DNA of 36,843 nucleotides. Source: Vicingaceae bacterium (lineage in GTDB: Bacteria; Bacteroidota; Bacteroidia; Flavobacteriales_E; Vicingaceae). This document shows, one piece after another, positions 1-20,322 of the stretch. Each line of letters opens with the position of its first letter. Positions within the stretch are counted from its first letter, which is position 1. Location: the NCBI GenBank assembly GCA_026003395.1, contig BPHE01000021.1, positions 1 to 36,843 of the forward strand, in the 5' to 3' direction. The notes beneath the pieces are model-generated. The model made no database searches, had not been told where the DNA came from, and saw only the letters and a list, made by a program, of their open reading frames with translations. Made by a program: the position numbers and the translations under genes.

Positions 1-869
1 CGTTTGGGAGTGTGATGGAGGGGAGGGGAAAAGATTCTGTAAATTACCGTTACGGCTTTAATGACAAAGAAAAGGTCAATGAAATATACGGTGCGGGAAA
101 TGCTTATGATTTCGGAGCTAGGCTTTATGATGGAAGGGTGGGAAGATGGATGAGTGTTGATGTAAAAAACAAAGTTTCACCAAATTGGTCCCTATATCGC
201 ATGTCATTTGATAATCCCTTAAAATATTATGATCCAGATGGTAATTTTGAGATTCCGATTCACAAAGAAATTACAAAAGAGGCTGCTAAATTTACTAAAC
301 TTACAAATAATCAAATAAAGTTTTTAATTATGGGAGTACAAAATGCCGATATTTTAGGATTTGCTGAAGATTGGCATTTTGATGGACGAAAAAACTTTGC
401 AGAAATTCAAGAAACTTGGAATAAATTAAATACGAGTATAAAAAGTAGAGCTGGTGATTATTACGGTCTTGGAGCTGATCTTCATACAGTCCAAGATTTT
501 TATTCTCACTCCAATTATATAGAACTTTATATACAATATTATAAAGATCAAGGAGGTGATATGTCTAAATTTTCTGCAGAAATGATTCCTTTATATGAAG
601 AAGGTGTAAAAGATGAAAAATTCAGAGAATATTTAGAAAAAAATTTAAGGACAGGTAATTTTGAGTTATTAAATAACGAAAAGATGCCATGGACTAATAA
701 AGAAGATTTAGGAAAAGACTCACATTATGAAATGAATAAAGATTCTAATGAATCAAAACATGGAGGTGAAAAAGTAAATGGCACAGACTTAACATATCAT
801 GAAATAGCAAAAAATGTGTCAATACGTGCAACAATAAAAATCCTGAAAGAGCATGAAAAAAATAATTAA
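1..869 (+). CDS. Rhs-family protein, C-terminal part with HET-C/phospholipase-like toxin tip (5' partial)
   Basis: The frame is open to the window edge (codons from base 3) and the residues before the first GTG (FGSV, then MEGRGK) fit the usual Rhs lead-in to YRYGFN-KE, so the real start lies upstream. Residues 12-78 (counted from the GTG at 12) form the Rhs-associated core: YRYGFNDKEK, YDFGARLYDGRVGRWMSVD, and the DPDGN boundary (bases 231-245). After the boundary the sequence becomes AT-rich and unrelated to the core, as in polymorphic toxins. The tip (residues 79-285) has an early His (H84), WHFDG (121-125) and GADLHTVQDFYSHSN, with H158, D162 and H166 spaced like metal ligands. This resembles fungal and bacterial HET-C proteins and zinc-dependent phospholipase C. 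Known of the family: Rhs tips are delivered effectors. Inferred: membrane-lipid hydrolase toxin. The overlapping downstream membrane protein would be its immunity partner. Confidence 0.8.
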   Translation, partial: FGSVMEGRGKDSVNYRYGFNDKEKVNEIYGAGNAYDFGARLYDGRVGRWMSVDVKNKVSPNWSLYRMSFDNPLKYYDPDGNFEIPIHKEITKEAAKFTKLTNNQIKFLIMGVQNADILGFAEDWHFDGRKNFAEIQETWNKLNTSIKSRAGDYYGLGADLHTVQDFYSHSNYIELYIQYYKDQGGDMSKFSAEMIPLYEEGVKDEKFREYLEKNLRTGNFELLNNEKMPWTNKEDLGKDSHYEMNKDSNESKHGGEKVNGTDLTYHEIAKNVSIRATIKILKEHEKNN

Positions 870-1245
870 AGACAGGTTTGTTTTGTATCTTTCATTGATC
901 TCGATAACTATTATAATAAGTTTTATTATGACATTAATCGGTATTATTGTAAGTCAAAGTCGATTAACTGGTATAAGTTGGGGTATTTCATTTGGTATAA
1001 TAGCTGGGCATTTTTTGTTATGTTTATTTTTACGGTTTGGTTTTATTTTTTCAGTTATTAAAACGATAATTTATTGTATTCTATTGTTGTTTTTGTACTA
1101 TTTTATTTCAAATTATTTTTTTAAAAATTTATTTTTTAATAATAGTAAATTATATATCCCTTTTTATATTTTATCAATAATCATTTCATGGGAAATATCT
1201 TTCTTTTTTGCAAAAAAGCTACAAACAGTCAGAATATCTCTTTAA
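853..1245 (+). CDS. Small four-helix membrane protein, candidate immunity protein of the Rhs tip
   Basis: This 130-residue protein is almost entirely hydrophobic, with four predicted membrane segments at about residues 9-33, 41-63, 65-92 and 99-121 and a Lys-rich N-terminus. I do not recognise a named family. Its ATG lies inside the last codons of the Rhs tip (17-base overlap, 853-869), so the two are translationally coupled. Very low GC matches the toxin tip rather than the flanking genes, suggesting that they moved together. Known of Rhs loci: a cognate immunity gene directly follows the toxin tip. A membrane location would suit protection against an enzyme attacking phospholipids. The role is inferred only from position, overlap and topology. 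Confidence 0.65.
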   Translation: MKKIIKDRFVLYLSLISITIIISFIMTLIGIIVSQSRLTGISWGISFGIIAGHFLLCLFLRFGFIFSVIKTIIYCILLLFLYYFISNYFFKNLFFNNSKLYIPFYILSIIISWEISFFFAKKLQTVRISL

Positions 1246-1378
1246 ATTGTTAATTTATTTTTATTTAAACAAAATCTTGAAAGCCAATCAAAATAATTTA
1301 TGGAATCTTCCAAATAAACTATCTATTGCTTCAAATCAAAAGAAATATCAACACATTGATAAGTAGAAACCCATATAA

Positions 1379-1528
1379 GCCATTTTACCGAAACTCACCT
1401 TCCGCTACGACGCCACCGGCAACCGACTGGAGAAGGAGTATGTCTTGCACTACAAAGACATCTACCTAAGAGACCCGCAGGGAAATGTGATGGCGGTGTA
1501 AAAAACAGAATGGACATTTTTCTGATTT
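1379..1528 (+). pseudogene. Orphan Rhs/YD-repeat core remnant
   Basis: A short GC-rich island in an AT-rich gap. Bases 1391-1501 translate to KLTFRYDATGNRLEKEY, then LHYKDIYLRDPQGNVMAV and a TAA stop. RYDATGNRLEK is a YD repeat, and YLRDPQGNVMAVY is the usual Rhs core text just before the tip-proximal region. The stop falls exactly where a Tyr is expected (TAC/TAT to TAA), and the frame continues KTEWTFF before another stop at 1526-1528. There is no start codon, and an in-frame stop lies just upstream (1376-1378). It is therefore a decayed piece of a second Rhs core, left downstream of the active tip/immunity cassette. The rest of 1246-1719 holds no gene that I can support. Confidence 0.7.
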
Positions 1529-1698
1529 TTTATTTTACTCGTTAAACCAAATTGCTTAATGGTGAAATTTGCCCTAAATTCCACCTTCTCTTAAAAAGTC
1601 AACCCCTTGTCCGACAATTATACATTTTCTGAATGATTATGTCAACCTTAGCAATGAACTTATATTTTACTCTGTTCATGTATAAGTGAAGTTTTTAG

Positions 1699-1706
1699 TA
1701 AGTTTG
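1699..1706 (+). promoter_or_regulatory. Candidate Bacteroidota -7 element upstream of dusB
   Basis: TAAGTTTG matches the Bacteroidota housekeeping -7 consensus TAnnTTTG perfectly and lies 14 bases before the GTG and 26 before the TTG start candidate of dusB. I see no convincing -33 TTG at 19-21 bases upstream, so support rests on the -7 box and position only. Confidence 0.35.
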
Positions 1707-1719
1707 TAATCAATTCAAA

Positions 1720-2757
1720 GTGCTACACGTTTTGGTTAAAATTGGAAACATAATTTTTGAAGATTTTCCCATTTTGCTTGCACCGATGGAAGATGTGAGC
1801 GATCCTCCTTTTCGCCGCTTGTGCAAGATGAATGGTGCCGATATGATGTACACCGAATTCATCTCCTCCGAAGGACTCATTCGTGATGCAGCCAAAAGCA
1901 AACAAAAACTTGATATTTTTGAATACGAGCGTCCCATCGGCGTTCAATTGTTTGGCGGTGATGAAGAAGCCATGGTACAGGCCGCACAAATCGCCGAACA
2001 GGTCAATCCTGATTTGATTGACATCAATTATGGTTGTCCGGTCAAAAAAGTCGTATGCAAAATGGCCGGAGCTGCTTTGTTAAAAGATGTCGACAAAATG
2101 TCGCGGCTTACATCCATGGTTGTCAAAGCCGTAAAACTGCCCGTAACAGTAAAAACCCGACTGGGATGGGATGATAAATCAAAAAATATTCTGGAAGTAG
2201 CTCTTCGCTTACAAGACGTTGGCATCCGTGCTATAACGGTACATGGACGTACGCGCGTTCAAATGTATAAAGGCGAGGCCGACTGGACATTGATCGGAGA
2301 GTTAAAATCTTGTGGAAAAATTTTTATCCCGGTTTTTGGCAACGGTGATGTTGATTCTCCGTTTAAAGCATTGACAATGAAAAACAAATACGGCGTGGAC
2401 GGAATAATGATAGGCAGAGCTTCTATAGGTTATCCCTGGATTTTCAGGGAAGTGAAACATTTTTTAAAAACAGGTAGTCTTTTGCCTCCTCCCACCCTTG
2501 AGGAAAGAATCGAAGCAGTAAAAATGCACCTTGATTTTTCAATTGAATGGAAAGGAGAAAAATTGGGCATATTAGAAATGCGCCGGCACTATGCTAATTA
2601 TTTTAAAGGTTTTCCAAATTTCAAACCTTATCGCATGCGACTTGTCACTTCTAACCTTTACGATGAAATTATTGATACGTTAAATCAAATAAGCCATGAT
2701 TATGCGGGTTTTCAAACTGATTATCCTTACTCCGTGCCTGATACTTTGCATGCATAA
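1720..2757 (+). CDS. dusB: tRNA-dihydrouridine synthase, DusB type
   Basis: This FMN- and NADPH-dependent enzyme reduces specific uridines in the tRNA D-loop to dihydrouridine. The N-terminal LLAPMEDVSDPPFR (residues 19-32) is the flavin-barrel signature. The catalytic Cys is in INYGCPVKKV (C106). KTRLGW and ITVHGRTRVQMYKGEADW follow, then GNGDV and GIMIGRASIGYPWIF for phosphate/FMN binding, and a helical tRNA-binding C-terminus. 345 residues is typical. The listed GTG start is uncertain: relatives usually begin MVKIGN, which here would be the TTG at 1732. The 3' end overlaps the start of the CotH-family gene by 62 bases. The gene is housekeeping, and nothing suggests transfer despite the adjacent Rhs cassette. 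Confidence 0.93.
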   Translation: MLHVLVKIGNIIFEDFPILLAPMEDVSDPPFRRLCKMNGADMMYTEFISSEGLIRDAAKSKQKLDIFEYERPIGVQLFGGDEEAMVQAAQIAEQVNPDLIDINYGCPVKKVVCKMAGAALLKDVDKMSRLTSMVVKAVKLPVTVKTRLGWDDKSKNILEVALRLQDVGIRAITVHGRTRVQMYKGEADWTLIGELKSCGKIFIPVFGNGDVDSPFKALTMKNKYGVDGIMIGRASIGYPWIFREVKHFLKTGSLLPPPTLEERIEAVKMHLDFSIEWKGEKLGILEMRRHYANYFKGFPNFKPYRMRLVTSNLYDEIIDTLNQISHDYAGFQTDYPYSVPDTLHA

Positions 2758-4915
2758 CAGGATTTGCTCTCAATCTACCCATCATTGGGAAACAGCCGTT
2801 TATGCCTATGACTATTGGAAATACCTTGTACCTTCAGCCAATGTTGACCCTGATTGGGACACATTGGGTTTCAATGACTCTTCCTGGAATACGGGGAAAG
2901 GCGGTTTTGGTTATGGTGACAATGATGACTCGACCATTGTGCCAAATGGTACTTGGAGCGTATATACACGGATAATTTTTAACGTGCCTGATACCTCCAA
3001 AATCACCAAAGCCGTTTTATCGGTCGATTTTGACGATGCTTTTGTTGCATACATCAATGGTGTGGAAGTTGCTCGGTCAAATATAGGAATGCCGCAAGTA
3101 CCCCCGAATTACAATCAACCTGCCGGCGGTTTGCACGAGGCACAAATGTATCAAGGCGGCTTACCGGACAATTATATTATTCCCAAAACGGATTTATCCG
3201 GTTTTCTCAAAAATGGCAACAATGTTTTGGCCATTTCCTATCACAATGAAAGCAATACTTCTTCCGATTTAAGCGGTATTGCTTATCTGCATTTCGGCAT
3301 CAGCGACAATTCCCAATTTTTTGGGCCAACTCCTTCATGGTTTATCCCACCTGTATCACTTGATTCATTTAACCTTCCTTTATTAATTATCAACACCAAC
3401 AATCAAAACATTGTGCAATACACTACCATAACCGCCGATATGGGAGTAATCGACAATTATCCTTTTTACAATCACCCCAATGACCCTTTCAATAATTACA
3501 ACGGTAAAATTGGCATTCGCATCCGTGGGTCTTCATCAGCATCTATGTTTCCCAAAAAAGGATACAAAATAGAAACCCGCAACTTGCTTGGCAATCCCAT
3601 AGATGTCCATTTACTTGGTTTTCCGGCCGAGAGCGACTGGATATTGCATAATCCCTACAGCGATAAAACATTGATGAGAAATGCATTGATCTACCGTTTG
3701 ATGAATAAAATGGGACGGTATGCCACAAGAACCAGGTTTTGCGAACTGTTTATCAATGGTGAATATATGGGGGTGTATGTGTTTGAAGAAAAAATCAAAA
3801 GGGATAAAAATCGTGTAGACATTGCCAAACTTCTCCCACAAGACACTACCGGCAACGAACTAACGGGCGGATATATTTTGAAAATCGACAAATTCACCGG
3901 TAATTCATATCCCGGCTGGACGTCCAACTACACCGCCCCACCCGGAAATGGTATTATAAAATTTCAATATCATGACCCGGAGGAACCTGAATTGCACCCA
4001 TTACAAAAACAATACATTCAGGAATATGTCGACAGCTTTGAAACCGCATTGGCCGGACCTAATTTTTCGCATCCTCAGTTGGGTTTCAGAAAATATGCCG
4101 ATGAGTTTTCGTTTATTGATTTCTTCATAGCCAATGAAATTACCAAAAATGTTGACGGCTACCGGTTAAGTACATTTTTTTATAAGGACCGCAATTCAAA
4201 TGACCCTCGTATACATATGGGACCCATCTGGGATTTTAATTTAGGATTTGGCAATGCCAACTATTGTGCGGGGGGAGATACTACCGAATGGGCCTATTTG
4301 TTTAATTATATCTGTGGTTCACAAATTCCGTTTTGGTGGGAACGTCTGATGCAAGACACCATTTTTGTTAACAACCTGAAATGCCGCTGGTTAGAATTGC
4401 GAAATTCAGTGCTGCATACAGACAGTGTTTTGGGCTTGATAGATTCTGCCATCAATGTTTTAGGTCCGGCCATAGAACGTGAATTTTATCGCTGGCCTCG
4501 ATTAGGCACTTATGTCTGGCCCAACAATTACGTCGGTCAAACCTATCAAGACGAAATTAATTATCTGAAAAACTGGATCATTAAACGCCTGACATGGATA
4601 GATATGCATTTGCCCGGTGAATGTCATTTGCCGGGAGATTTAACCTCATCAGAAAAATACATTCCCCAAGACAATGATTTTTATCTTTTCCCTAACCCTT
4701 GCCGAAATTATCTCAATATTATGCTGCCGGCCAACGGACAATATCATCTGAAAATATTATCGATATCCGGACAAATGATCAAGGAAATACAGCTGAATTA
4801 TGGACAGGCATTGATCGACCTCTCATCTGTTCCTTCCGGAGTTTATTTTATTACCTATCAAAATCTTAATAACCCGGCTATTTTCGGAAATTTCAAATTC
4901 GTAAAAATTGAATAA
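2696..4915 (+). CDS. Secreted CotH-family protein with T9SS type A sorting domain
   Basis: 739 residues. The N-terminus (about 1-26) is a signal peptide (hydrophobic LIILTPCLILCM, then SQ). The start may be 2696 or the in-frame ATG at 2702; both lie inside dusB, but the signal peptide needs them. Residues ~30-200 look like a beta-sandwich binding domain (PDWDTLGFNDSSW, YINGVEVAR). Residues ~225-620 are the CotH domain: IRIRGSSSASMFPKKGYK, LLGFPAESDWILHNPYSDKT, LMRNALIYRL, FEEKIKRDKNRVDIAKL, GGYILKIDK, GPIWDFNLGFGNANY. CotH proteins are atypical protein-kinase-fold proteins; the substrate here is unknown. The last ~75 residues (FYLFPNPCRNYLNI to FKFVKIE) form a type A C-terminal sorting domain, so the protein should cross the outer membrane by T9SS and be anchored or released. 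It ends just before a GC hairpin. Confidence 0.88.
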   Translation: MIMRVFKLIILTPCLILCMHNRICSQSTHHWETAVYAYDYWKYLVPSANVDPDWDTLGFNDSSWNTGKGGFGYGDNDDSTIVPNGTWSVYTRIIFNVPDTSKITKAVLSVDFDDAFVAYINGVEVARSNIGMPQVPPNYNQPAGGLHEAQMYQGGLPDNYIIPKTDLSGFLKNGNNVLAISYHNESNTSSDLSGIAYLHFGISDNSQFFGPTPSWFIPPVSLDSFNLPLLIINTNNQNIVQYTTITADMGVIDNYPFYNHPNDPFNNYNGKIGIRIRGSSSASMFPKKGYKIETRNLLGNPIDVHLLGFPAESDWILHNPYSDKTLMRNALIYRLMNKMGRYATRTRFCELFINGEYMGVYVFEEKIKRDKNRVDIAKLLPQDTTGNELTGGYILKIDKFTGNSYPGWTSNYTAPPGNGIIKFQYHDPEEPELHPLQKQYIQEYVDSFETALAGPNFSHPQLGFRKYADEFSFIDFFIANEITKNVDGYRLSTFFYKDRNSNDPRIHMGPIWDFNLGFGNANYCAGGDTTEWAYLFNYICGSQIPFWWERLMQDTIFVNNLKCRWLELRNSVLHTDSVLGLIDSAINVLGPAIEREFYRWPRLGTYVWPNNYVGQTYQDEINYLKNWIIKRLTWIDMHLPGECHLPGDLTSSEKYIPQDNDFYLFPNPCRNYLNIMLPANGQYHLKILSISGQMIKEIQLNYGQALIDLSSVPSGVYFITYQNLNNPAIFGNFKFVKIE

Positions 4916-19290: not shown

Positions 19291-20322
19291 TTAAATTCTG
19301 GATTTATTCATGGCGCCTCCAAAAGGAGAAGGATAAACAAAACGAAGCATAACCTCGAAACCACCCCTGCCTTTTGATGCCTGCTGCAACGATGACGTAT
19401 TCAGATCATACGCAAATCCCAGTGCATAGTTACTCCACTCCAACAAAAACTTAAACACAACCGCATCTTTATTCCTGTAAAATATCCCGGGTCCGAATGC
19501 TATGGCATCCTTCAAACCCGTATATTTCGACCCCTCTTGAAATTGATATCTTATGTATGTCCCCATTAATAACTCCCTCGCAGGTCCCTGCATTTGATAA
19601 AATACCGATGGCGCTGCCGAAAATTTACTATTGCCTATTCCCACCAACCCCCTCGCAAATATCGATATCCGGCTGTATAGTTTGTCATTGCTTAAATCTA
19701 TAAATCCATACTTTGCCCGATTTAAATGATACATCGCCACACCTGCCGAAAACCATTGTTGATCCCCGCCTATTTTATATGTGTCGTGTTTTTTGTAATT
19801 GTATACTACCCCCACTCCTGCATCAAAAAATCCAAAAGACGAGTTGCTCACAAATTCGTTGGATGGGAGTGTACCATCCCATTTCAACCCATTGTATTGC
19901 GAACCCCAACGGGCATCATCGTAATTGATGCTGTTTTGATGATAGGCCCCCAACAAGGCGCCTCCAAGTGTTTGTCCTTCGCCAATCTTCACATGATAGC
20001 CAAATGAAAGGGAAATATTCGTGGCACTCACTTTTACCTCTCCTGCCTGATCGCTAAAAAATTGCAATCCTCCTGCAAAAAAACCTTTTTTATTTCGCCT
20101 GTTGTTTAAGCGCATATCAAACGATGCATTGATGGTCTTGAAAGGATAGGATATACTTTGCCATTGAGACCGATACAATGCTATGGCTTGCAACTCATGA
20201 TCGGCCCCCACTAACGCAGGATTAACCTGTATAGGCGAATAATTCATTTGTGAAAAATGCACGTCTTGAGCAAAAGCCGCCGTAAGCGTAATTAAACAAG
20301 AAGCAAGTAAATATTTTTTCAT
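19291..20322 (-). CDS. PorP/SprF-family type IX secretion system membrane protein
   Basis: 343 residues with a signal peptide (KKYLLASCLITLTAAFAQ). The mature start DVHFSQMNYSPIQVNPALVGA, then LYRSQWQSISYPFKTINASFD and GGLQFFSDQAGE, is the family signature. The rest is a beta-barrel-like alternation ending in FVYPSPFGGAMNKSRI. Family members (PorP, SprF) sit in the outer membrane and are needed for secretion or anchoring of particular T9SS cargo, often the protein encoded next door with a type B (gliding-motility) C-terminal domain. That is the case here: the adhesin-like gene ends 17 bases upstream on the same strand. Confidence 0.92.
   Translation of the reverse strand: MKKYLLASCLITLTAAFAQDVHFSQMNYSPIQVNPALVGADHELQAIALYRSQWQSISYPFKTINASFDMRLNNRRNKKGFFAGGLQFFSDQAGEVKVSATNISLSFGYHVKIGEGQTLGGALLGAYHQNSINYDDARWGSQYNGLKWDGTLPSNEFVSNSSFGFFDAGVGVVYNYKKHDTYKIGGDQQWFSAGVAMYHLNRAKYGFIDLSNDKLYSRISIFARGLVGIGNSKFSAAPSVFYQMQGPARELLMGTYIRYQFQEGSKYTGLKDAIAFGPGIFYRNKDAVVFKFLLEWSNYALGFAYDLNTSSLQQASKGRGGFEVMLRFVYPSPFGGAMNKSRI

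Follow-up and report, generated by a model that had tools for sequence, protein, structure and literature searches.

A HET-C/VWA7_N-type toxin tip and an overlapping candidate immunity gene at the end of a Bacteroidota Rhs gene

Genes at the contig edge

The window, i.e. the whole stretch of 36,843 nucleotides that was analysed, begins at the very edge of C21, a contig of a 2.54-Mb genome placed in Bacteroidota by its named relatives, and the upstream part of the Rhs gene is absent. The open reading frame at 3..869 (+) comprises the end of an Rhs core, the DPDG motif (231-242) and a C-terminal tip, its 5' end being open at the contig start. The GTG at 12 was rejected as the gene start because the frame runs off the contig edge at which the window begins. 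The following features were determined:

3..242 (+): C-terminal end of the Rhs core, ending in DPDG (TIGR03696, 37.5 bits against a cut-off of 32.5)
243..248 (+): N followed by F, the predicted P1 and P1' residues of Rhs self-cleavage by comparison with the Tse5 and RhsA sites
246..869 (+): all-helical toxin tip of the HET-C/VWA7_N type, 207 aa, stop included in the range (PF25107, 37.1 bits)
483..509 (+): HTVQDFYSH, the predicted metal-ligand cluster H80-x3-D84-x3-H88
853..1245 (+): four-helix membrane protein of 130 aa, candidate immunity protein (open reading frame, hydropathy, shuffle test)

An Rhs-associated core (Rhs_assc_core, TIGR03696) ahead of a variable tip is the arrangement of Rhs polymorphic toxins. 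A candidate aspartyl-autoprotease pair was recognised in the sequence of the core at 159-161 and 231-233 (D-x23-D); the spacing of 24 compares with 22-23 in RhsA and Tse5 (D1141/D1164 in Tse5, PMC10684867). The GC content dropped from 39% in the core to 28% in the tip and 21% in the membrane gene, as would be seen in a cassette formed by recombination.

Further Rhs pieces were detected in the same genome. A short core remnant (LTFRYDATGNRLEKEYVLHYKDIYLRDPQGNVMAV) lies downstream of the membrane gene at 1394-1501 (+) of the window, as would be left by an older core or tip after its displacement. On the minus strand of another contig (G000:C7:6599-10519), three tandem Rhs core ends with differing open frames of 273-399 aa resemble a series of orphan tip cassettes.

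Family and predicted fold of the tip

The sequence-only reading of the locus had compared the tip with HET-C and zinc phospholipase C (PLC) proteins and had proposed a profile search. In this search the tip matched VWA7_N (PF25107) with 37.1 bits against a gathering cut-off of 27.5 (E 2.8e-9), and is thus not a chance feature. Of the families that had been expected, Het-C (PF07217) stayed at 16.1 bits, under its gathering cut-off of 21, and Zn_dep_PLPC (PF00882) gave no match with the window tip. The relative L036 scored above the cut-offs of both VWA7_N and Zn_dep_PLPC and came near Het-C, and by its sequence bridges the VWA7_N and Zn_dep_PLPC families.

F1, H6, D35, H44, H80, D84, H88 and N90 were invariant in a 32-row alignment and D46 and D166 nearly so, the conservation of F1 being partly by construction, since rows with a visible A-x-A|F site were deliberately trimmed there. 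H160 was also invariant in a 29-row alignment. The four residues on which the earlier comparison had been based, numbered H84, H158, D162 and H166, are codons 261, 483, 495 and 507; they correspond to H6, H80, D84 and H88 of the tip, all of them among the invariant ones. All six published motifs of Tox-HET-C, namely H, [DE], HxD, HxxxDxxxH, Nxx[DE] and [ST]G (PMC3482391), were found in the tip as H6, D35, HFD 44-46, HxxxDxxxH 80-88, N90xxE93 and T136-G137. With the VWA7_N match, the conserved motifs, the fold and the L036 bridge, the suggested HET-C/zinc-PLC relationship turned out to be largely right.

The AlphaFold2 model of the tip, obtained with the 29-row alignment, had a pLDDT of 91.4 and a pTM of 0.89 and was all helical, as is characteristic of the PLC/P1 nuclease superfamily. 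In the VIA-align comparison the first 15 rows were all zinc PLCs or S1/P1 nucleases with Z values of 6.8-8.9, in a range where helical models can reach 8 by chance. The next row had a Z of 2.7; this gap, together with the exclusive zinc PLC/S1-P1 list, argues against a chance match of the modelled fold. Foldseek alone was weak for the tip model (best E 0.16), and a sequence-profile search of the PDB with the tip gave no match, so that the structural link is provided by the fold model. PADLOC and PHROGs gave no match worth using. The candidate ligands of a putative trinuclear zinc site, the N-terminal residue included, were conserved in the alignments, and the metal of the putative phosphodiesterase is probably zinc.

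The tip most likely acts as a phospholipase-type toxin. The alternative, which we consider rather unlikely, is an S1/P1-like nuclease or 3'-nucleotidase, in which case the membrane protein would block its entry or bind the tip at the membrane. S1/P1 nucleases share the fold and the ligand set (Z 6.8-7.4), a plant nuclease of the same fold with phospholipase activity is cited in PMC4144908, and Zhang et al. do not decide between nuclease and phospholipase (PMC3482391). However, the PLC structures stand slightly above the nucleases in the ranking (Z 7.7-8.9), relatives match Zn_dep_PLPC, and polytopic or lipoprotein neighbours suit the envelope better than the cytoplasm, the last being a weak argument in view of the controls described below. 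The idea of a lipid-directed Rhs effector with a membrane immunity protein, put forward in the sequence-only reading, thus stood as regards the layout of a toxin with an overlapping membrane gene; the lipid-directed part is no more than likely, given the fold shared with S1/P1 nucleases.

Relatives of the tip and their neighbouring genes

Five further Rhs-HET-C tips were found in Bacteroidota: L008/L002 (45% identical), L009, L021, L007/L017 and L173. Such tips are rare, with matches in 3 of the 395 genomes of the class, and the other relatives are mostly secreted stand-alone proteins from many phyla. Single-protein scans of viral and genome contigs gave no relative; a query with the alignment did find relatives.

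Some of these tips are carried on short core fragments (357 aa in L008, 347 aa in L009). The L007/L017 tip is broken by an in-frame TAG just past SHSNYV (about 3058 in L017, about 1633 in L007) and the four-helix gene downstream of it in L017 is intact, so that either immunity was kept after the loss of the toxin or the TAG is an assembly error. That the window tip is likewise a remnant, an orphan cassette no longer delivered, is improbable. The short cores and the broken tip of the relatives, the upstream gene missing at the contig edge and the core remnant at 1394-1501 would agree with decay, but the tip of the window is intact with all its ligands, and the core retains both Asp of the candidate autoprotease pair. 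The locus is a real, intact-looking Rhs-HET-C tip with a candidate membrane immunity gene.

In all six Rhs-HET-C loci the neighbour is a polytopic membrane protein or a lipoprotein. The gene after the tip encodes a four-helix protein of about 130 aa in the window, L017 and L021, and a lipoprotein of about 200 aa in L008, L009 and L173. It overlaps the tip or lies at most 4 bases away in five of the six, and about 50 bases or more away in L008. The lipoproteins of L008 (about 3754-4338) and L009 (3702-4301), both of about 195-199 aa and directly 3' of the tips, are homologous to each other (E 5e-10), the one of L009 being without a Pfam family; they make up a candidate new immunity family.

The four-helix protein of the window has four hydrophobic segments and overlaps the tip by 17 bases (853-869), in agreement with the sequence-only reading. 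The same reading had proposed a search for homologues of this protein that always lie next to HET-C tips. No convincing homologue was detected in the 395 class genomes, and other tips are followed by proteins not detectably related to it or by lipoproteins. The 130-residue protein is therefore not a conserved partner of Rhs-HET-C tips. Neither the tips nor the membrane protein matched any plasmid, and the membrane protein matched no phage. Matches to DUF373, ABC2_membrane_5 and others were rejected as composition-level only, as they were either short, in frames with stops or confined to parts of proteins of about 380 aa. Homology among the three four-helix proteins (window, L017 and L021) was rejected as well, with z values of 0.4-1.2 in a class-preserving shuffle.

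The orphan state, the unrelated proteins that fill the same slot at other tips and the general suspicion attached to AT-rich hydrophobic frames might indicate an unrelated or decayed open reading frame, with immunity elsewhere or absent. We regard this as quite unlikely. The longest stop-free run in 5000 dinucleotide shuffles of 853-1245, read in six frames, was 120 codons as against the 130 observed, and the frame is real, not a chance one. It also overlaps the tip, and in L017 and L021 the gene behind the tip encodes a protein of equal size with as many helices. As a rule, the immunity proteins of polymorphic toxins are orphans that change quickly.

The type of neighbour was also determined for 21 control tips, Rhs tips of Bacteroidota that are unrelated to these (L089-L123). 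Of their next genes, 17 were judged by eye to be of membrane, lipoprotein or signal-bearing type, and 3 of the 21 had at least three helices, as compared with 3 of 5 in a smaller set of the Rhs-HET-C tips (p = 0.06). A membrane neighbour as proof of a lipid target was accordingly rejected. Since such neighbours are usual for unrelated Rhs tips, they say little on the substrate; they fit an envelope target without proving one, hinting that many Bacteroidota Rhs tips act in the envelope.

Taken as a whole, the locus probably comprises the 3' end of an Rhs polymorphic-toxin gene from Bacteroidota and a candidate immunity gene. The tip would be a metal-dependent phosphodiesterase of the PLC/P1-nuclease fold, in its HET-C/VWA7_N branch and of phospholipase type, acting in a rival cell on the outward-facing side of its membrane or in the periplasm. 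Rhs-borne HET-C tips thus appear as small units with adjacent candidate antidotes, open to laboratory testing.

A related arrangement outside Rhs was seen in L174. The protein at 106-3107 is a true Het-C protein (PF07217, E 2.9e-34) with a further N-terminal part, and its gene overlaps that of a DUF7738 lipoprotein by 4 bases; the two are candidates for a HET-C effector/immunity pair.

The first residue of the tip and Rhs self-cleavage

In Rhs proteins the cut has been located one residue past DPxG (PMC10684867, PMC8765631): Tse5 is cut at Leu1168|Ile1169, as determined by N-terminal sequencing (PMC10684867), and the density of RhsA stops at Trp1350 (PMC8765631). By analogy, the F at 246 is predicted to be residue 1 of the freed toxin. 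F stood exactly at P1', one residue past DxxG, in all six Rhs-HET-C tips and in 7 of 67 control tips, which corresponds to p of about 1e-5 if the tips were independent; the six are homologous and thus not independent events. The P1 residue was N in the window tip and E, K, D, R or L in the others. L173 has the canonical Leu, and P1 deviates from the Rhs consensus of L/W/F in five of the six.

The secreted relatives carried the same residue after a different kind of site. A small-x-small|F site following a hydrophobic run was detected in 59 of about 75 non-Rhs HET-C/VWA7_N loci; in a few of these the script took a neighbouring F, the A|F site still being visible. A blind site picker, which often chose an earlier A-x-A in the family signal peptides, placed F at +1 in 17 of 38 of them and in none of 59 other crude signal peptides from the same loci, which served as the comparison set. 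The structure alignment begins at residue 1 of the model and at the first residue of the mature PLC and S1/P1 chains. Bacillus cereus zinc PLC has Trp1 where the tip has Phe1. In S1 nuclease the mature N-terminal Trp, exposed after removal of the signal peptide, binds zinc via its main chain (PMC5201275).

The F at P1' in the tips and the F after a signal-peptide-like site in the relatives suggest that Rhs cleavage may double as enzyme maturation. The Rhs shell would hold the tip and the Rhs aspartyl autoprotease would cut after DPDG-N. The freed chain would begin with Phe, the amino end of which would complete the metal site with H6, D35, H44, H80, D84, H88 and H160. The enzyme would then hydrolyse phospholipid, and the overlapping four-helix membrane protein would protect the producer at the same membrane. 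We propose only tentatively that the DxxG-x|F cut frees a zinc-binding Phe and that the toxin has no activity before its carrier cuts it. Self-cleavage would thereby take the place of signal peptidase in exposing the metal-binding N-terminus. If this step is right, the cleavage site explains how a shell-carried toxin stays inactive until cut.

There is about an even chance that the HET-C domain is real and its Phe1 has only a structural role at the natural domain start, not being a metal ligand freed by Rhs cleavage. Recombination joins Rhs tips at DPxG, where a domain starting with F would land nearby anyway, and the P1 residues are mostly not L/W/F. L174 carries the domain internally, with an aromatic residue near the first His (FGAG), and Anaerolineae and archaeal relatives have such an aromatic and no signal peptide; in these forms a free N-terminus is not evident, and a free Phe may thus not be strictly required. 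A purely structural Phe1 would, however, have to account for the offset of exactly one residue in six of six tips, equal to the measured P1', for the same residue after the signal-peptide-like sites of most secreted relatives, and for the start of the structure alignment at residue 1 of mature PLCs.

Several of the features described have counterparts in known systems. Tox-HET-C toxins have been known since 2012 (Zhang et al. 2012, PMC3482391) and share with the tip an all-helical structure, the six motifs, a predicted PLC/S1-P1-like metal site and the role of a C-terminal toxin. In contrast to the Bacteroidota Rhs tips with their membrane or lipoprotein genes, that survey lists them without Rhs fusion, Bacteroidota or an immunity family. 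As far as the searched literature shows, the pair had not been described before, as the sequence-only reading had also supposed, and the Rhs carrier, the candidate antidotes and the coincidence of Phe1 with the cleavage site are new. Fungal cell death in self/non-self recognition, bacterial toxins and a vertebrate protein of the cell surface all make use of HET-C domains, the chemistry of which is still a predicted one (PMC3482391). The YdjM domain described at Rhs C-termini in 2021 (PMC8557891) is likewise a PLC/HET-C superfamily tip, but by its description belongs to another subfamily and is coupled to a beta-sandwich domain. B. cereus zinc PLC and its relatives agree with the tip in fold, ligand order and alignment from mature residue 1, and differ in being free secreted enzymes with 13-14% identity. 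The secreted VWA7_N proteins (PF25107), the best Pfam match, have the same conserved residues but stand alone, some with a VWA domain, and are not Rhs tips.

HET-C is also a delivered effector in the VgrG-HET-C proteins of Acinetobacter and Stenotrophomonas (PMC6838775, PMC13055248), which, unlike the present tip, are carried on the VgrG of type VI secretion. The VipA model of that system had no match in this genome; Bacteroidota-type systems can escape this model. The genome contains 18 PorP-family genes of type IX secretion. In the window, a CotH-like protein at 2696-4915 (+) has a tail that by eye resembles a type IX sorting tail, and a PorP/SprF-family gene lies at 19291-20322 (-); from these two the host probably uses type IX secretion.
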